Source: Antedon mediterranea
Taxonomy: Eukaryota > Echinodermata > Crinoidea > Comatulida > Antedonidae
Reading direction: 5' to 3'
NCBI RefSeq assembly: GCF_964355755.1
Contig: NC_092670.1
Location: 1,761,001-1,825,000 of the forward strand
DNA: 64,000 bases
This document shows positions 17,800 to 32,481 of this stretch, one piece after another; position 1 is the stretch's first letter; each line of letters starts with the position of its first letter. A program made the position numbers and the translations under genes. Below the pieces are notes generated by a model. It was given only the letters and a program-made list of their open reading frames with translations, had not been told where the DNA came from and ran no database searches.

Positions 17800-20700
17800 T
17801 CATGATTCAACCTTCTCAACATCTGTTGCTCCTGTAGACAGCATAGCAGGATCGATGGCATCACCTGCAGATATCTCTTGTGCAGACTCTGTGCTGTCAG
17901 TGCCCTCAAGTCCAGCACTAACCTTCTTGTTTGTCTTCTCTTGCTGCTTCTGTTCGAAGTCTCTGACATCTTCAATAGTTAAATCTAAAAAATAAAAAAT
18001 GTTAACTGATGATCTTAACACACAATTTCACATAATACTTTTATTATATTATTTAAAGATATATTGTAGCCCTAAAAAAAAATTTTTTTTTTTTAAATTT
18101 TTTTTTGAATATGCCATTTTAATGTCACGTAATAGTGACTGGATCGAAACAAAAATGATTTACCTGAAAAAAAAAAGGAATTTAAAGCAAAAAATTATTT
18201 TTAAATGGTTTTTGGTTAAAATTAACCGTTTGGTTTGTCTTTTTATAAGTGAAATTTTTTTTTTTTACAGAAGCTAATAACTTGATTAAAACTGCAAAAT
18301 GGCCAAATTTAGTCTGATTTTATTAATCTTTTTTCATGTTTTGTGGGGAAAATACATCTTTAAAAATGGGTTCACAAATACATTTATTGAGCAAATTGCT
18401 TGTGACTATTTAAATCCTTTACAAGTCTCTTTGAAGCCAACTTTGATTTACTTGTTGATGTGTATACGTTATAGCTACTGTAAATATGACTGTACATAGG
18501 AAATCCAGGTTTAATTTTGTTAAAGTTATTTTTATCAGGATGCGTTTAAAAACGACCAAAATAGCTACCCAGTCATTGATATCATAAGAGTTGATATTAC
18601 TGAGCGTGCCATTAACACCAACGACGTTAAGACAAGACTTAGCAAATGCTACTCAACTTAACCTATCAGCATAATCCTCATATCCATTTACAATTTGCGT
18701 CAAAGGTCACACGTTACAGCCGTTTTCGTTAAACATTAAATTAAGCTTATTTTATAGTTTGACTTTTTTCAAAACATTTGAGTTCATATATTGGATTTAT
18801 TTATTTAGAAACCAAATTAGGTGAAGTTTAACTTGTTTAGAAATTGGGAACAAATACATAAACAAAGTCATTTAAACAAATTTAAAAAAAAGCACTAACA
18901 ACATATACACTATGTAAAATGCAGGCACTAACAACATATACACTATGTAAAATGCAAGCACTACAACATAATTATACACTATGTAAAATGCAAGCACTAA
19001 CAACATATACACTATGTAAAATGCGATATATTTAATTTAAAACAAGCACTAACAACATATACACTATGTAAAATGCGATATATTTAAAACAAGCACTAAA
19101 AACATATACACTATGTAAAATGCAATATATTTAAAACAAGCACTAACAACATATACACTATGTAAAATGCGATATATTTAAAACAAGCACTAACAACATA
19201 TACATTATGTAAAATGCGATATATTTAAAACAAGCACTAACAACATATACACTATGTAAAATGCGATATATTTAAAACAAGCACTAACAACATATACACT
19301 ATGTAAAATGCGATATATTTAAAACAAGCACTAACAACATATGCACTATGTAAAATGCGATATATTTAAAACAAGCACTAACAACATATGCACTATGTAA
19401 AATGCGATATATTTAAAACAAGCACTAACAACATATACACTATGTAAAATGCGATATATTTAAAACAAGCACTAACAATACACTATGTAAAATGCGATAT
19501 ATTTAAATATCAAACTGTTAACATTTTATTCTGCTGTAACCTAGAGTTTAATAAGTTCATTTAATTTAATTAATTTTTGTTTGTTTTCATGTTCCTTGCA
19601 AAGTTCAGTGTAAGCTGCTCAAACCTTTTTTTTGGACATTTCTTTATTTTATTTAAAAATTTAAAAAAAGAGTTTATGTGAAAAAGTGAACTATCGCCTT
19701 TTAATCTGCCTTAACTTCTTTCAAATTGAGCTCTCTCATACACCGCAACTTTGATCGCTTACTGCTGAAATTGGCGCATTACAAATTCGTATTATTATTA
19801 TTGTTTCTGGACTTTATGGACTATACATGCGCTTTAATCTTAAATCTTTAAGTATAAGTAAATGTTTAAAAAAAAGAAATAAACTTGACTAGCTACCTAT
19901 CCATTCATCAATCCATGTGAACGCTTGCCTATGACCCAGTATCAATATCTCTTGAATGGACTGAAAACAAAATAATTTATTAAATTAAAAGTTTAAATAA
20001 TGTACGGAGTTGATTGACATTTGTTTGTATCATGGTAAAACAATAGATGAGGGCTGCATCACTGGGACTGGCCAAATACAGTTCAAATATTAGTGTATTC
20101 AATAAAATAATCATGTTACATAAAAACAATGTTACACAAAAATTTAATTTACCCTATGAACAAAATCCTCGACCCTTGACCTCAATCCCCACACATCAAA
20201 GCGTACTTTAGTTCCTTTGTATGAGCACATAATTGGTTTTGTGTTTTCCTGGAAAATAACATTTCATATCCCTGTTATATATAACACAGCTGTTTACAAG
20301 TGAACAATTCAATGTCATTGATACTTGAAAGCACTTTAATTTGGTGTCCAGAAATGTTTGCTATTAAAGTATGTCAGTATTATAGCAAGCTTAGGTTTAT
20401 TAAAAAATATTACAATATGAAGGATGATGATGATGAGATGTAATGTTTTTTGATAAATTTCTCATTTTATGTGTATTATTTTGTGTGTATGATTTAGTAA
20501 ATTATAATAATATAATGATACATTTATTATTATTTATTACAGTTCACATTACTCCATGTTCCGCATGAGCGATTTGTGTAACACCATTGACCATCACATA
20601 AATTTGATACTTCAAGTTATATTAATGTTCTTTCATGCGTGACAGATGAATTTGTAACACAAGTATAAAACAAGCTCAGTACAAATGTCTCGCTTAATGC

Positions 20701-23700
20701 ATGGATTTTATCGTCTTAATTCTGAAATCTAACATCTCAATCTAAAATTATTTCAATCAATGTTAAAATATTTCTGTCACATTGAATAGTGTTTTTCTAG
20801 AATGTATTATAAAATGTGACATTTCTTTATATGAATGTTATCAGTATATGTCTGTTTGATAGGTATTCACAATGTATCATAATTAAATGTCTCATTTCTT
20901 AGATGGATTTTATTGCAATTACTACATTATAACGTTTGATTTAAATTGATATACTGAACATATATCACCATCACATGTATTATAAATAGCTCGCTAATTA
21001 TATAATGAAGGAACATGTCTGTTTTAAGTATGTAACACAATATATTTTGTAACTTAACACTGTATAATTTGGATTGATTACCTTGACTGCTATTTTTACT
21101 CACCCTCCATCCGGCAGTTAGTGGCCCTCTACCTGTTTTTGCAGATTTAAATTTAGTAGGGTCCTGAAATAAATAAAGAAATCATGATTTTGATGAAAGT
21201 TTACAGGGGAATCCCAAAACATGTTTTCAAGGTCTTGCATACATTCTAACACCAGAGGTCTTTTAACTTGGAAAAATGAAAAAATAAAATGTTTACATTG
21301 AAGAGAAATTGCTGGAAAATCTAAGGAGTATTACCTCAAACCACAAAACCTGATAAACAGAGTTTCTATTAATTTGTAACTGACACGTTAGCAATTAGCT
21401 CTCAAATGACAAACACCAATTGTTGATTGATGTCTCAGTTACCTTGAAGGTAACAAGACTACTGCTAATGCATGATGAACACAAAGCGATTGTTCAATTT
21501 AATTAAATATATGATTCATGATAATATATTAATTTAGATTAAATTCTATTGCATATTACTGACGTCGCATTGAATATAAGTTTGTCGTTATCCTCCAATG
21601 GAAAGTATATTAGTCAGCTAGGTTTGATTCGCACTTGGATGTTGTAGGCCTACTGTACAACTACAACAAGCAATTTGATCAACGCTTGCATACATCCTTG
21701 ATAGTGGGAACCAAGCTTTATCCCAAATGTAGTCAGTTAAGCTTGATTCCCACTAGGATGCAACATAAGCTATTTGATCAACGCTTGCATACATCCTTGA
21801 TAGTGGGAACCAAGCTTTATCCCAAATGTAGTCAGTTAAGCTTGATTCCCACTTGGATGCAACATAAGCAATTTGATCCACGCTTTGTCAAATTACTTGC
21901 ATACATCCTTGATAGTGGGAACCAAGCTTTAGTCTCAAGTATCCCGGTGTAACTTAACTCGCCATGTAACACATTCACACTCAGACCTATAGTCTCCAGT
22001 TACTCTGTATTTTTATGTTGTTAGTATTTAATATCGCCTCCAGCTAACATTTTAGTCTGTAACAACCTCAGGTATACATATGACATTAATTTTGTGCCAA
22101 AATGTTTACCTTTTTTACCAATATTAAACCGAATTAATTGACTAGCTGGACTAACTCTGGAGTTGCAGATTCAATAAATTCGTAACACTTTTATTACTGG
22201 CATTCACTACGCCGTAGTGTTATTAACGATACACATGGAATTAAAATCAGTTGTTTTATTATTTCAACATCTATTTTTATGCTTTAAATAGTATTTGGTT
22301 GATATTTAAATATTTTCCATAAAGGTCAAAGGTTACAAAGAATGAACTATGTACTACTGGAAGTTTAATGACAAAGAATCTCAAGTCAGTTCCTTATCAT
22401 ATACTACAATTTTAAGTGGAAACAACAGAGGTATAATAACATTTGAGAGCAACTGTTAAAATTATTATCAAAAGTGTATAAATAATAAATCAGAAATCTA
22501 TGGATAAAATAAATATAAGGTTTTTTCTGATCATTAGAAAGAAATCCTTGTCAGAAGCAAAGATGTTGGCACATATCAGGGTCGTAGCCACCAGTACGGT
22601 TGGTAAGGTTTGAACCTGATCACTTTTTCACCGACGCTTTTGACAACCCAGTGGCTTGAAAACAGATTGTTCCCTTTTCATGCAACAACCGCATCACTTT
22701 CTTGTGGCTACTGTACATCACTGCATAGCCAAGACTTGTGGAAGGTACTGGCGATATAGTCAATTACGAAGCGACCCTACAACCACACTTGGTCACAGGA
22801 CCAAGACTTGTGGAAGGTACTGGCGATATAGTCAATTACGAAGCGACCCTACAACCACACTTGGTCACAGGACCAGTAACATAAATAAAAATTATTATAC
22901 AAAAAAAATGTTATGTAAATGCTGAATGTTAAAAAATGTGAACATTAAATGCACAACGACGACAGAAAGGATACCTGAAATCCAGCTGACATAATCTTTT
23001 TAAAATCAATAAAAATTGTCATTGACAATCATACATTGCCATGGCAACAGAGGTTAAAGGGATTCTAATTGCACACATCAGGTTGTCATAGCTGCAAGCA
23101 ATTTAACATAAATCAAACATTTTTATTTTTTCTTACTGAGATTCATTTTTTTTTATATAATTTGTAATTTACTTGTACATAGATCATTGCTAACTCATTT
23201 CTTAATATATATTTCAAATTAAGTAAATAATAAATCTTCCAATAGTTGGTACATAATTATTTACGTGAAAAACGTAAATCCAACTTTAAAAAAAAATTAA
23301 ATCTGACCGACCGACCCTGTTTTTAATTAATGTTGTGATTGGACATCATGTTTTAGGCCCAATCAACACGACTTGTTCGAAATTGGACATCATGTTTTAG
23401 GCCCAATCAACACGACTTGTTCCAAATTGATTGAAGTATGCGTGGGCTGTCGTACATTCTAGCCTAATTAGTGTTGCTTGCAATAAATAGAGTTACAACA
23501 AAACATAAATTAAGAAGCAATAGTTTATATGTTTATTAACAAAGTAAGAACATTATGTTGAACATGACATTGTTTATGTCTCTGTAAACATGTTGTAACT
23601 AGTGTGTGTTTACACTGACATTCAGGTGTTTGTACAATCAGACTGTAACTAGTGTGTGTTTACACTGACATTCAGGTGTTTGTACAATCAGACTGTAACT

Positions 23701-26700
23701 AGTGTGTGTTTACACTGACATTCAGGTGTTTGTACAATCAGACTGTAACTAGTGTGTGTTTACACCAACATTCAGGTGTTTGTACAATCAGACTGTAACT
23801 AGTGTGTGTTTACACTAACATTCAGGTGTTTGTACAATAAGATCATTTGAAATCAAATAGGAAGCACTCTAACATTTCACAAACATAAGTAAAAGGCTTG
23901 GTTTGAAATTTATCCTGGGATAGAAGTTAGTACACCAGAGGTCTGTAACCAACTTCCTCATTCCATCCATTACACTCCATCCTCTTTTCTCTCCTGAAAA
24001 CTCACCTATTTCAATAGTTATTCTTTTCATATTGCGCTGTGAGACTGTGGTAAAGAGCGCTTTATAAATGTTGCGCTGTGAGATTGTGGTAAAGAGCGCT
24101 TTATAAATGTTGCGCTGTGAGATTGTGGTAAAGAGCGCTTTATAAATGTTGCGCTGTGAGATTGTGGTAAAGAGCGCTTTATAAATGTTGCGCTGTGAGA
24201 CTGTGGTAAAGAGCGCTTTATAAATGTTTGATATTGTTATTATATCATTATAATAAAGTATTTACCTCATTTTCTTTATAATGTTTTTCCGATATTTCAT
24301 CAAATGCAATGTCTAAAGGTAACACCTCACGTTGTAGTAGATCTTCTTCAGAATAACCTAAACACTGTCAAGAAAAACATCATCATGAGATGAACCAACA
24401 AATATTATACTTTTTTTCTTTAAAAAATGTCTTTTACTTACATTGTCTGTTGTTCCGCTGTTATTTTCATATTTTGTTTCGATTTCTATACTGAACTTGG
24501 GCACAAAAGAACACTGAAAAAAAAAATGAAAAGTTAAAAAACTTTAACTTTAAAGTTATATTTTTACAGAACTTTTATTCAAATCTACGGACATATTTTG
24601 CAGGTACTGTATTCTTGTTGTTCAGTAAAATCTTTGGTTTGAAATAAAAAATCAATTCTATTATATTTCATGAATTGTACTAAAAATACTGGCTATACAT
24701 TTAAAATGATTTAGCAAATAACAAACAGATTTTATCTTGACTCTGTAATGACATTGTGGTATTAAATAGTACAGTAGGAACTGATGAGTTTAGGACGACA
24801 ACGTTACATCTATCCAGGTCAGTAACAGGAAAGTGTTGCATGTAGAATATGAATTAATAAAATGCATATTTGTTTTCACTTGAAATGCAATTAAGCCAAT
24901 CTCTGATGCATCTAACAGGATGTTTTGAATATCAAATGAAACTCTATCAGGGAAGAGAAAATTGATTGAAAACTACGCATGTTAAATCAATTATTATTCA
25001 AATATACTGGTTTGGGGATTCAATTTCTTCAATTTCTTTCTTTCTACACATTTTGATTATTCAATTAAAATTTTAAAAGTTTTAGTACTATTTTTAGTTT
25101 CATTATTTTAACCGTCAAAATAAAGTATACTGGAAAATAAAAACATCCATACAAGTGCTGGGTCAAAATTTCAGGTTTAAAGAACACATGTAACATGAAA
25201 CAAATTTTAGACCTTGAGAAATTCAATTTTTGGTAAATTTTCAACTTGGTCCAAACCAGTAGTGTATAGTTTATACACATTAATAATAAGGATCCTAGTA
25301 TTGTGACAGTGGTTAAGATTTGAACCTGAACCCTTGTATTAGTAAGCAATAAACAATACTTACTGTGTATTCTGATGAGTCAACAATATGAAAAAAAAAG
25401 AAGAAAACATTTTTTTTTATATGTACTGTAGTACGTATATTGAATAAATGCAAAACCAGATCCTTGATGATAAATAAAGATCCAGTCCATTATAGTGAAG
25501 GGTTGCATTCAACTGTTCATATTATATGGTCTCCTCAGGGAGAACAAGGGCTATTGTTGGCTTATCCAGAAAAGCTAGGCATGAAATAGACTTTCTTGTT
25601 TATTGCTTAAATGATTAGTTTATATTCATTGTCATCTCCAAATTATTACAGAAAACAAATTAGAACACAAATGCATTTTTGATTGCGTCGCAACCTCTGA
25701 AATTGCAAAGTTTGGAGGACATGCCTGGATGTTCACGTTGACAACATTTTAATTCCAAACAAATTGTTTACAAGATGTTCAACTTTTTTAATTGCCCTAA
25801 GTGCAAGTGAGGTGAAGTGAAGTTAATATTCACATAGTACTCATGAGAACAGATACCCGGCGGGGCTCAATATGATAAAGAAGCATGCTTAGTAAAGTAC
25901 AAGGTATTAGCACTAAACCTAATCAATCAGTAATTATCAAGGTAATGTTCATTATCATAGCATGCTATATTCAAACAAGATTCAATTTATCAAAAGGATA
26001 CTTTGATATATATTTTGAATGCAATATTCATTGATTTTTATGTTAAGGATCATTGTGCTTTTTGTATATATGCATTTTTAATATAATTTTATAAACGAAT
26101 TTCCCATTTTGAGATAACAATGTTATTGAATTAAATACCAAACATGATCTACTTTCTTGTTTGAGAGGGTGGGGTGGGGCGGTCAGGGGTCAAATCAATA
26201 CAGGTTACTTTAATTAATCATTCGTTTATCCGTGAAGCCAAAAATTGACACCGCGTGTTGTCTTGGATTTTTTGTTTTCAGAAAGTGAAAGTGACACTAT
26301 TGACTAAGTTCAGTCTTAATATAGTAATAGTATACCAAGTGATTAATTTACAAGATTATAAATTTAAACTACAGCTTTCAAAGGCTGAATTCTCTATGTA
26401 TAAATTACACATGAAAATGTCTAACTAAAACCATGACATTTCAACGTTGGTCTTTATCATGTTTTTTCACAAAAAAAGCAGTCACGGTTAGTGTCACTTT
26501 GTGGCGCCACTAACGAATGAAACCAGTTAAACGACAATTAAAACCTGTCATTTATTCCATATTCACTCGGAAACAAGTTTCAAATTCTTAATATTGAATT
26601 ATAAAATCTACATTTCCATCGTCACCGTACTACAACATTTGAGATTGTCGTAAATCGTCGTCCTTATGAGAATCACTTGATTATGAATAATTTGCGGTAA

Positions 26701-29700
26701 TACGATCTGAAAGCGTGTCATTTAATCGTTGTTAATTCTGTTTGTAGATCACTACATATATCTATAAAGTAGGGTGGTGAAGTAGAGTCTAGTATACAAG
26801 AGGTTAGGTTACAAGTAAGCACCTAGATGGCGGACATAATGAACTATACAGCATGTAGTAATGCTAAATGCTGCCAGCCAACACAAAATGAACACATACT
26901 ACAATGAAGGTTGAAGAAATCATTGAACCTACACAAATCTTTTAATATCTTTATAGTAAGTAGATAAGATTTAAAGTGTATTAATTATACACTTTACATA
27001 ATATATTTTCAAAACGTATTATAATAATTAATATTGTCAGAACAGTAGTTAATTATTAATTATTATAACATTGGTTAGTTATTTCGCTGCCACTAAGACC
27101 ACTTTAATAAAATGTCTTTCTTGTCAGTCAGTGAGTCACTAGGACGTCACGTACACAAAACAAAAGTAATTTGACCATAACATACAGTTTACATTGCTTA
27201 TGTACAGTGTGGTTGAATCACTAACATCCAGATCTTAGTGGCAACCAAAGCACCATACCACTTAATTGGACAGCAACTGTATTAAGGTGTCTTCTTATAT
27301 AATGCATGATTGTAAAATAAACATTTCTAAGTTGGTTTCTTCTGTATATTTAAGTGTATTTCATGGCATTCATAAACTGTACCATTTGGTACGATTGTCA
27401 CCATATTTGGTACGATTGTCACCATATATGTGGTACGACTGTCACCATATTTGGTACGATTGTCACCATATTTGGTATGATTGTCACCATATTTGGTATG
27501 ATTGTCACCATATTTGGTATGATTGTCATCATATTTGGAACAATTTTCACCATAATTTGCACTATTGTCACCATGTTGTGAGGTAATTTCCTGATTGATC
27601 GTAATCAAAACAGTACTGGGTTTGGTCTACTAGCGTTCCTGCTCCCAACCAGTACATCCTTAATGAAGTAAGCCTACCTGGTGGTGGCCATAGAACGGTC
27701 CCGAGATAACGACTATACTTCGGCTTTAGTCGATAAAAGATTGAAAAAATTGTTACAGATCGAGTATACGATGTTTGATTATGTGTTCTATAGGGAAATT
27801 ACCTCACGACGTTGGTACCACCATATTTGTGGTACGATTTTCACCATATTTGTGGTACGATTGTCACCATATTTGTGGTACGATTTTCACCATATTTGTG
27901 GTACGATTTTCACCATATTTGTGGTACGATTGTCACCATATTTGTGGTACGATTGTCACCATATTTGTGATACGATTGTCACCATATTTTTGGTACGATT
28001 GTCACCATATTTGTGGTACGATTGTCACCATATTTGTTTAGAAAATATAACATTGTATATTAATAACAGTAATATTTCCGGTTAAGTTGTCATATCATAG
28101 GAAGTTAATTGCTAGTGTATTAAAAGCCATGACCCTTTTATATCATTGTTTGTATTCAAATGGCAAACACTCTCTCACCTGTAAATGTGTGTGGATAGTA
28201 GTTCCACGCCTTTTCTGTCACATAAAAGAAACTGCAGATTTTGGAAAGCATTGTTTGTATCCAACCAGGTAAACGACTAAAATAAAATAAATAAAAGTTA
28301 CGGTTTTACAAAAACATACCCTACTCACTATAGATTCAATATTTATGAAAATCTGTAAACAAATCGAAAATAATCTAAAATAAAAATAAAATTTCTAGTG
28401 CTACTGTAACCAGTAAATATAATTTTTTCTGTTAAAATACTGATACAGCTAAGAACAATCAATATTTTCTTTTAACATGTTATTATAATATAAATTTGCA
28501 TAATAATTGTTGGAAAGTTTTGACATGGTCCCTAGGTCCTTAAAGCAACTTGCCCTTTAAATGAATTATTGAATGTTTTAATTAATTTATCAATATTAAT
28601 ATCCACTCTCAAAGTTCATCTTAACTATGATTACAGTGTGTACGGGGTGCAATACGAAGCACAAGTGTACTGTATTAATTAGTTTACAGTGTGGTATGGG
28701 GTGCAATACGCTGCAGAAGTGGACTGTATTAATTAGTTTACAGTGTGGTATGGGGTGCAATACGCTGCAGAAGTGGACTGTATTAATTAGTTTACAGTGT
28801 GGTACAGGGTGCATTACGCTGCAGAAGTGGACTGTATTAATTAGTTTACAGTGTGGTATGGGGTGCAATACGCAGCGCAAGTTTACTGTATTAATTAGTT
28901 TACAGTGTGGTATGAGGTGCATTACGCTGCAGAAGTGGACTGTATTAATTAGTTTACAGTGTGGTATGGGGTGCAATACGCAGCACAAGTTTGCTGTATT
29001 AATTAGTTTACAGTGTGGTATGGGCTGCAATACTCAGCACAAGTTTACTGTATTAATTAGTTTACAGTGTGGTATGGGGTGCCTTACGCTGCAGAAGTGG
29101 ACTGTATTAATTAGTTTACAGTGTGGTATGAGGTGCAATACGCAGCACAAGTTTACTGTATTAATTAGTTTACGGTGTGGTATGGGGTGCATTACGCTGC
29201 AGAAGTGGACTGTATTAATTAGTTTACAGTGTGGTATGGGGTGCAATACGCTGCAGAAGTGGACTGTATTAATTAGTTTACAGTGTGGTATGGGGTGCAA
29301 TACGCTGCAGAAGTGGACTGTATTAATTAGTTTACAGTGTGGTATGGGGTGCAATACGCTGCAGAAGTGGACTGTATTAATTAGTTTACAGTGTGGTGTG
29401 GATTACATTAAGCTGCAGAAGTGGACTGTATTAATTCATTAATTGGGTCACAATTAAGCAGTGTAATACAATTATTACTATTATTTAACACTGTTGTATA
29501 GGCACCAAAGTGTCTTTTAAAAACAAACTAACTATTAAAGTATTCCCATTTAGTTTTGTATGGGGTGCCACAAGCAGCACAGCAAGTGTTCTGGATATTA
29601 TACATGGTTCTCTTCTCTACCAAAAACATACTCATTCTTTTAGTACTCATAAAATCATCCCCCATAGTAGGAATTTTATTGCACCCTAAAGTATTGCCCA

Positions 29701-32481
29701 TCTTTATCATTACTTTTTTTTGCTGCAGTGGCACCCCGTAGTATTCTACTCTGAAACATTTTTACTTAATGTCGTTCAATAATTTTATTTAATGTAGCAG
29801 GAAATGGTTGCCACATTACGAGTGCATCTTCACATATTCAATTTCATTCAACAGGATGCAACACAATACAGCATTGTATTTGCATATGTCAACTATTTAG
29901 TGTATTCTTTGAAATAAAGTCAATACATGTGTATGTACTTTAGATGCTAAACAATTTAAGTGACAGTTTTTAGTCGATTAACATTTTGAATGCATAATGC
30001 TTGATGTATGTATTATATAATTGTTATAATATTCAACAAACAAATTTTTCATTTTTTTTTCCATACATTTTTTGTTTATTCTTTTCCCCTCGAAACATCT
30101 ACAGTAAAACACTCATTAAAAATATAATAACTTTAATTGAATGATTAATCAAAATAAAACTACTAATGAAATAATGGCACTTGCCGAGTGGCTCACAAAT
30201 TCCAAGGTTCAAATCCTGACCATGTCACAGTATCAGAAATGTTTGAATGGCTAATTTTAAAGACAGCACAATTTAGCAAACATGAATATTATGGCAAGTC
30301 ATGTGATAGCACATTTTAATGTCTCATGACCAACAATTGGATCATAAAAATAATTGTTCCCTTAATAATCTGCAATTTTATAGATTAATAAAAGTCTGGA
30401 AGTCAACCGTTTTGGGTAAATTTAACCATTTACTTTGTGAAGTGAATTAACATTACAATATGGCATATTTAAAGTTTGATTTTATTAATCTGTAGTGTAA
30501 ACTGTTCATACATAGATTATCTTAAAAAAAATATATATAGTGTTTAATAATAATATGAAACGTATGGAACACGAAATGTAAGGAAAATAAGGAAGCCCAG
30601 CTCTGCATAAATGTAACCAACCATGTGTATAATGAAATGAGGCTCTGGACAGTATTACTATAAGAAGATAATGATGATGATGATAAGCAGTAATTTTATT
30701 AAATTATAATAAACTTATCTTACTTAGATATATAGATACGCTTTTCCGTAAATTGACCAGCACCGTGTACTTCATGTTGGCATGGTTCGTTCTTGACCAC
30801 CTCAACACCCTCGCCGTTTGACGACTGTTCATCGCTGTGTTTCGCTATCATATACAACTGTCCAACTTTGTACTGAAAGTATACAAAAGAACAAGCATTA
30901 ATTATTTTAAAGTATGCCTCAATCTCATGGAAAGCTTAAATACCCTATGATCATTTAAATCTATTTTACACCTCCAGGCTTCATATTATGCTCTAAAACT
31001 TGTCAGCCCCTCCTCCCTCCACACAATAAAAAGTAAGTGTGATTGGTGCAGAAGTGTAAGGAGTGAATGGCCGATGCATCTGACTGTCTGCCCAGCCATC
31101 AGTAAGCAACAACTTATAAATATAAATAAGCAAATTAGACTAATATTATAGTACTAGCATAAGCCTAGGCCTGGCCTTAGTTGAAGTTAAGGCGCTAGTT
31201 CCGTTTCGCACCTGTCGTTTATTTCGACTCAAAATTGGTTAAGTAACTTTATCGTGAGTACCACACCTTAGAATTAGGCCTCAAAAATATTTTTACGAAG
31301 GAGATCACACAAAAAGTAAAAAATAAATCCTTTAAATTGATGAATTTACAGACGTGTTTCTCGCACATCGGTTCGTGAATTTCGCATATACTCCATGTTC
31401 AATGTTGTTGTTTCTATGGAGCGCCAAAAGAGCAATCATAATAGAGGGCTAAAAACTCAAGAAATTGCGTATATTTAATGCATTTGTTGGTGAAAATTAC
31501 GTTCAATTTTATCATATTTTGTCAATGTCAATGCAACAAAAATATTACTGTTGATACTGTACATGGTTTTTGCAGGAACTTTTAAGAATGAAAATCGACA
31601 AATTCATCATCTTATTACATGTACTGTGTAGGGGTATACCTATTACCTGATCTAAATAATATTCCTCTTAGTCTTAGTAAGACTGACTAAGAGGTTACTT
31701 ACTCTTAGTTAGGTCTAGGGTTGGTTGCTATTTGAAAACAGCAAATTATTAGCAGTAAAATGTTACAGCATTTTTATTGACAAAATATATTAAAATCAAA
31801 CGTGTATTTCAATAATAAATGCATTAAAAGAAGACGCATTCCACTGAGTTTTTAACCATCTATATTGTTGTTGCTCTTTTGGCGCTCCATAGAAACGAAA
31901 ATATTGAACTTCGAGTACGCTAAATTCGCGAACGGTATGCGAGAAACATGTCTGTAAAAAAATCATCAATTTAAGGATTTATTAGTTACTTTTTATGTGA
32001 TTCTTCTTCATAAAAGTACTTATGAGGCCCAATTTTAAGGTGTGGTATTCACAATAAGTTGCTTAACAATTTGGAGTCAAAAGGAAGTCGAAATAAAAAC
32101 AGGTGCGAAACGGAACTAGCGCCGAAGTTAATAAGCCAGGCCCATTCCTAAATACAAATACAATACGTTTTATTTCTTAGAAAGAAATAGTCTAATATAT
32201 AAGATTTGAAACAAATGACATACACAAACAACTGACATACACAAACAACTTTTTAAAAGTGTATAGCCTAGGTTAGGCCTATAGCTAAACTTCAGCCAAA
32301 AAGGGCAGTTCAATCAACTCATACCCCGCAGCGCAGAACACTCACACACGAAACTGTACGCTAGCTGCTTCTCTATATAAAACGTATCCGTTTATCATAT
32401 TGAGCAAAATAACTGATTTAAAATACAGCTTACCTCTTCTACAGTCAAAGGCATACATATCCGATACTCTTTAAGCATCAT
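17800..32481 (-). CDS. PITPNC1: Cytoplasmic phosphatidylinositol transfer protein 1 (RdgB-beta), complete
   Basis: Ten coding exons: 32434-32481, 30724-30872, 28179-28276, 25364-25371 (8 nt), 24442-24513, 24266-24364, 21104-21163, 20153-20248, 19897-19960, 17800-17984. They sum to 879 bp (292 aa) with phase preserved throughout. The start MMLKEYRICMPLTVEE is diagnostic of the class II PITPNC1 group. Then come YKVGQLYMIAKHS, FYVTEKAWNYYPHTFTEYTC, PKFSIEIETKYENN, KTGRGPL, KPIMCSYKGTKVRFDVWGL, HRQAFTWIDEWIDLTIEDVR and FEQKQQEKTNKK, all in family order. The protein binds and moves phosphatidylinositol or phosphatidic acid between membranes. The C-terminal about 45 residues are acidic and Ser/Thr-rich, as in the longer vertebrate isoform, which binds 14-3-3; no binding motif is evident here. 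The 14.7 kb span comes from introns full of minisatellites and MITEs. The second Met (32476-32478) could also serve as start. Confidence 0.96.
18898..19505. repeat. 47-bp minisatellite in the last PITPNC1 intron
   Basis: About 13 copies of AAGCACTAACAACATATACACTATG followed by TAAAATGCGATATATTTAAAAC. The first three copies are shorter because they lack the GATATATTTAAAAC part. The core of the array is nearly uniform. Confidence 0.92.
21675..21935. repeat. Tandemly duplicated MITE family 1 relative
   Basis: Repeats of TTGATCAACGCTTGCATACATCC, TTGATAGTGGGAACCAAGCTTTA and AGCTTGATTCCCACT alternate about 2.5 times within a PITPNC1 intron. The termini match MITE family 1. The period is about 114 bp, so an internal unit has been duplicated after insertion. 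Confidence 0.75.
22729..22872. repeat. Direct 71-bp duplication
   Basis: Two identical consecutive copies beginning CCAAGACTTGTGGAAGGTAC and ending TTGGTCACAGGA, in a PITPNC1 intron. Confidence 0.9.
23595..23838. repeat. 50-bp minisatellite, five copies
   Basis: Five copies of GTAACTAGTGTGTGTTTACA followed by CTGACATTCAGGTGTTTGTACAATCAGACT in a PITPNC1 intron. The fourth and fifth differ at ACTGACA (ACCAACA, ACTAACA). Confidence 0.9.
23950..24235 (+). mobile_element. 3' end of a LINE/SINE with its tail unit amplified five times
   Basis: Sequence at about 23993-24020 (CTCCTGAAAACTCACCTATTTCAA) encodes LLKTHLFQ, a common end of CR1/L2-type reverse transcriptases. It is followed by five 39-bp copies of TTGCGCTGTGAGATTGTGGT plus AAAGAGCGCTTTATAAATG, then TTGATATTGTTATTAT. 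GCGCTTTATAAATG is a typical retroelement 3' tail in marine animals. This copy is a truncated remnant in a PITPNC1 intron. Confidence 0.6.
25364..25371 (-). CDS. PITPNC1: 8-nt microexon of PITPNC1
   Basis: On the minus strand, TCATCAG|AATACACA|GTAAGTATTG. The upstream exon (28179-28276) ends in one leftover G and the downstream exon (24442-24513) begins TGT TCT TTT. Only by including AATACACA does the join read ...TFT-E-Y-T-C-SFVPKF, restoring the conserved TEYTCSF block. Skipping it gives a frameshift and an early stop. Both splice sites match consensus. Confidence 0.9.
27386..28036. repeat. Two GTACGATTGTCACCATAT minisatellites split by a MITE
   Basis: The left array (27386-27577) has a 21-bp period (TTGGTACGATTGTCACCATAT). 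The right array (27812-28036) has a 23-bp period (TGTGGTACGATTGTCACCATATT). They share the same core and flank the 229-bp element at 27578-27806. The open frames here (WYDCHHI, VTIFG) are repeat artefacts. Confidence 0.92.
27578..27806. mobile_element. 229-bp MITE with TIR GTGAGGTAATTTCC
   Basis: GTGAGGTAATTTCC at the left end and GGAAATTACCTCAC at the right end are exact inverse complements. The interior is unique in this window. It interrupts a minisatellite, so insertion and array divergence can be ordered. I could not read a clear target-site duplication. Confidence 0.7.
28640..29440. repeat. 54-bp minisatellite open on both strands
   Basis: About 15 copies of GGTATGGGGTGCAATACGCTGC followed by AGAAGTGGACTGTATTAATTAGTTTACAGTGT. 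There are two alternating variants: CTGCAGAAGTGGAC and CAGCACAAGTTTAC. Because 54 is a multiple of three and the unit lacks stops in one frame each way, long open frames appear on both strands (plus repeat CNTLQKWTVLISLQCGMG). The array sits inside a PITPNC1 intron, so I do not call it a gene. Confidence 0.93.
31191..32123. mobile_element. 933-bp foldback element with 8-bp target duplication
   Basis: Arms of about 265 bp (31191-31455 and 31860-32123) are inverted copies at high identity. They start GGCGCTAGTTCCGTTTCGCA and end TGCGAAACGGAACTAGCGCC. GAAGTTAA flanks both sides (31183-31190, 32124-32131), an 8-bp duplication. It lies in the first PITPNC1 intron, about 300 bp from the start codon. 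There is no transposase. The superfamily is uncertain: 8-bp duplications are found in hAT and P-type elements. Confidence 0.85.

Follow-up and report, generated by a model that had tools for sequence, protein, structure and literature searches.

The 8-nt segment AATACACA, on the minus strand of the window (the whole stretch of 64,000 nucleotides of Antedon mediterranea DNA that was analysed), is very probably a genuine and constitutively included coding microexon of the orthologue of PITPNC1, and the exon as such is almost certainly real. In minus-strand order the sequence runs CTTTTTTTTTCATATTGTTGACTCATCAG, AATACACA, GTAAGTATTG, with the exon at 25371-25364. Its borders, CATCAG on one side and GTAAGTAT on the other, provide a functional-looking AG and GT, and its length falls within the size used to define coding microexons (up to 27-30 nt). 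The upstream exon E3 ends in TTT ACA G, followed by GTGAGA, and leaves a single G in phase 1; E5 starts in phase 0 with TGT TCT TTT (C-S-F) and is preceded by TTTTTCAG. The leftover G of E3 and the 8 nt together encode E-Y-T, and the frame is restored from phase 1 to phase 0. The intervening introns measure 2,807 nt (E3-E4) and 850 nt (E4-E5). Re-reading of the minus strand reproduced the sequence, coordinates, phases and distances given in a preliminary description of this DNA.

We have built the whole gene (Table 1), placing the exons with paralogues as guides and by reading of the flanking sequence. The model comprises ten coding exons on the minus strand (32481-17800) and specifies a product of 292 aa that begins MMLKEYRICMPLTVEEYKVGQLYMIAKHS. 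All introns are of the GT-AG type, all phases are compatible and the other exons are intact. As had been claimed, the 8 nt are needed for the frame: only if the microexon is included does the ten-exon model keep an open frame of 292 codons. Spliced together, E3, microexon and E5 read NYYPHTFTEYTCSFVPKFSIEIETKYENNSGTTDN, and their joined translation contains the T-E-Y-T-C-S-F block that inclusion had been said to rebuild. When E3 is joined directly to E5 the translation becomes HTFTVFFCAQVQYRNRNKI and stops; the predicted frameshift thus amounts to 15 wrong codons and a stop within E5, located 25 nt before the E5/E6 junction and with four further junctions downstream.

Table 1. Coding exons of the gene and splice-site regions of its microexon (positions within the window)
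Feature	Position	Strand	Remarks
E1, coding part	32434..32481	(-)	MMLKEYRICMPLTVEE
E2	30724..30872	(-)	149 nt
E3	28179..28276	(-)	98 nt, ending in phase 1
E4 3' splice-site region	25372..25425	(-)	52-nt AG-free stretch, 100% pyrimidine 12-mer ending 19 nt 5' of exon, then CATATTGTTGACTCATCAG
E4, coding microexon	25364..25371	(-)	8 nt, AATACACA, completes E-Y-T codons
E4 5' splice site	25354..25363	(-)	GTAAGTATTG, sole GTAAGT in the 3,665-nt E3-E5 interval
E5	24442..24513	(-)	72 nt, phase 0 to 0
E6	24266..24364	(-)	99 nt
E7	21104..21163	(-)	60 nt
E8	20153..20248	(-)	96 nt
E9	19897..19960	(-)	64 nt
E10	17800..17984	(-)	185 nt, up to stop codon

Several tandem repeats are found within the gene. 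The intron upstream of the microexon is repeat-rich, as had been noted, and holds two minisatellite arrays: one of nine 21-bp units (27384-27574) and one of 9.5 units of 23 bp (27819-28037). Their units are related and both contain GGTACGATTGT and CACCAT. Tandem copies of a unit of about 40 bp, AACATTTATAAAGCGCTCTTTACCACAATCTCACAGCGC, start just downstream of E6 (24100-24235).

The product is matched end to end by the Pfam domain IP_trans (PF02121; positions 1-246/246, 357.3 bits). An in-frame deletion of EYT lowers the score to 345.6 bits, i.e. by 11.7, and the frameshifted product of skipping scores 145.7 bits. Moreover, the alignment between PITP-alpha structures and the gene product is free of gaps at the microexon residues. 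The protein ends shortly after the IP_trans domain; the long C-terminus of RdgBalpha is absent and an RdgB-type TxxTCxF block is present. On the basis of the short protein and the RdgB-type TCSF block, taken together with general knowledge of the family, the gene is assigned as an orthologue of PITPNC1/RdgBbeta, a class IIB phosphatidylinositol transfer protein, and not as a class I PITP or RdgBalpha. The start MxLKEYRICMPLTV, the whole IP_trans domain and the TEYTCSF block are features that we take to be common to vertebrate PITPNC1 and the gene described here; the likeness to PITPNC1/RdgBbeta in other animals (PF02121, class IIB) is one of protein sequence.

The paralogues encountered in a search of the same genome (a 354 Mb assembly of 18 contigs) have a different exon layout. 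In the class II paralogue (contig C3, 38.78-38.79 Mb) the stretch AWNAYPYTKTRFTCPFVEKF is encoded by one uninterrupted exon, and within it the segment KTRFTCPFVEKF has R-F-T exactly where the microexon gives E-Y-T (TRFTCPF versus TEYTCSF in PITPNC1). Since this paralogue encodes the block in one exon, the T of E3 should be separated from the C of E5 by three residues. In the class I paralogue (C3, 4.92 Mb) the only intron in the vicinity lies a few codons off, between RTE[FI]S and NPDYMKDNF, and no microexon is needed. The idea that the paralogues share the same microexon was therefore rejected in view of the continuous exon of the one and the single nearby intron of the other, and from these layouts neither of the introns that flank the PITPNC1 microexon is obviously common to the paralogues. 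In all paralogues the segment itself is part of the lipid-transfer domain core.

The class I PITP gene displays a separate peculiarity. It carries, on the minus strand, two tandem alternative copies of an exon (C3:4922790-4922888 and C3:4923138-4923236, locus L006) of 100 nt each, with good AG and GTAAGT sites, which specify two 33-residue versions of a segment that by our own count of positions holds the inositol-binding residues E86 and N90 (residues named in PMC6092267). Since the use of both copies would break the frame, they look like mutually exclusive exons within the lipid-binding domain. A literature search returned no publication on tandem alternative exons in class I PITP genes.

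Tiny exons that are always used are uncommon but known. An exonic enhancer can hardly be accommodated in 8 nt, and with so short an exon the complexes that form at the 3' and 5' splice sites stand almost side by side (PMC9929638 and general knowledge). In human MPC1, as shown by experimental tests, 67 nt of upstream sequence plus 6 nt of the donor are enough for a 4-nt exon to be included constitutively (PMC9929638). Like exon 2 of that gene, and like the microexons of TNNI1, KSR1, TMEM237 and MUSK (PMC9929638), the exon described here is coding, lies between introns, is shorter than 10 nt with a length not divisible by three, and is essential for the frame, and no skipped form is to be expected. 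Those are other genes in which inclusion was shown by RT-PCR (PMC9929638), whereas the near-complete inclusion in the mRNA that we propose here is inferred from the sequence. A literature search for publications that name PITPNC1 together with microexons returned none.

Recognition of the exon probably proceeds via its donor, the intronic part of which (GTAAGTAT) is fully complementary to U1, and via the uninterrupted pyrimidine tract upstream, which is the most uniform one in the gene (12/12 pyrimidines). The strong intronic donor and the uniform tract might compensate for the tiny size of the exon, in keeping with the stronger splice sites reported for constitutive microexons (PMC4317164). 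The end of this tract is 19 nt away from the exon, whereas the distance is 3-11 nt in the eight other acceptors of the gene; from a comparison of these nine sites it appears that the displacement could relieve the crowding of splice complexes. The AG exclusion zone of 52 nt compares with 19 to over 58 nt in the other introns of the gene. Two features count against a genuine, constitutive microexon. On its exon side the donor is poor (ACA instead of MAG; the overall match to the consensus is 7/9), and the long upstream intron departs from the tendency of constitutive microexons towards shorter neighbouring introns (PMC4317164).

It is unlikely, in our estimation, that the microexon is real but regulated, such that its tissue-dependent inclusion turns the PITPNC1 protein on or off and skipping leads to a premature stop. 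The unusual layout of the acceptor would suit such control, as would the expression of the zebrafish orthologue pitpnc1a in the nervous system (PMC6092267) and the sequence UACUAAU at 25338-25344. Situated some 20 nt beyond the 3' end of the microexon and well short of the next acceptor, the latter is a near-perfect branch-point sequence that is also of the SF1/QKI type; however, while UACUAAY is expected only 0.03 times per 150 nt of the minus strand, its rarity is a weak point because several motifs were tried. The position of the stop, upstream of the E5/E6 junction and four more, makes decay of the skipped mRNA plausible under a vertebrate-type rule. However, a premature stop would follow the skipping of every exon that breaks the frame, and it does not count as evidence of regulation. 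On the constitutive reading, mRNA without the exon would result from a splicing mistake, lack function and probably be eliminated by nonsense-mediated decay.

The signals of known regulated microexons also argue against such a switch. Microexons regulated via the eMIC domain have a UGC near the acceptor together with tracts of UCUC, and those of flies also have weak donors (PMC8797185). The PITPNC1 exon resembles the neuronal microexons that depend on eMIC/SRRM3/4 (PMC8797185) in its very small size, its long pyrimidine tract and perhaps its AG-free zone of 52 nt, a length within the range seen in the gene's other introns, but it differs from them in its strong intronic donor, the lack of UGC and UCUC, its core-domain residues and its non-3n length (regulated microexons being mostly multiples of three). 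More specifically, the 80 nt upstream are free of UGC (the nearest is 81 nt away), neither UCUC nor CUCU occurs in the 150 nt upstream, and both flanks lack GCAUG; the eMIC/SRRM4-type combination of a UCUC-rich tract with a UGC at short distance from the 3' splice site is absent. A search for the eMIC/SRRM_C domain (PF15230) gave no match in the genome, but none in any control either. In Caenorhabditis elegans, regulated microexons between introns of normal size need the U1-associated protein PRP-40 (PMC8378409). The preliminary description had held that exons this short usually need special splicing enhancers and that this one could act as an on/off switch. Given the absence of the motifs of regulated neuronal microexons and the resemblance to constitutive non-3n microexons (PMC9929638), the first idea is unsupported, and the same absence leaves the second, though conceivable, without support. 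A fully all-or-none switch, whereby cells that fail to include the exon make no PITPNC1 protein, perhaps through a factor that acts at UACUAAU and the displaced pyrimidine tract, appears less probable still.

The constitutive microexon was also weighed against chance and against other sources of E-Y-T. The 3,665-nt interval between E3 and E5 contains 82 frame-keeping open AG...GT candidates shorter than 60 nt, and ten of these measure 8 nt. Among all 82, E-Y-T is encoded by AATACACA alone, which is also the sole candidate with GTAAGT. Dinucleotide-preserving shuffles of the interval put the chance expectation for an EYT-coding AG-N8-GT at 0.003 occurrences, and any candidate that ends in [YF]-T and has a GTAAGT donor occurs in 0.15% of the shuffles. 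No other microexon of any frame-keeping length below 60 nt in this interval fits. An EYT-coding extension of either neighbour, which would have overturned the preliminary description, was not encountered: neither E3 continued past its donor nor E5 continued back across its acceptor encodes EYT. A search of the animal's own genome for an intronless retrocopy that keeps the E3-E4-E5 junction found none, and viral contigs contained no loci related to the gene. That the match is coincidental, with E3 joining E5 in another way or the gene (a pseudogene) not being expressed in this form, is thus highly improbable: the model is computational and 8 nt is little sequence, but no alternative segment fits, neither neighbour can be extended, and the other exons are intact, with phases that agree and a protein that matches its family end to end.

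Most likely, then, this is a constitutive ultra-short exon of an already known kind. Exons so short are often missed by gene prediction, and as a consequence a PITPNC1 model for this species may come out frameshifted, truncated or three residues short. For the study of splicing, the gene offers a clean natural case of how the spliceosome recognizes an exon of 8 nt whose flanking introns are 2.8 and 0.85 kb long.
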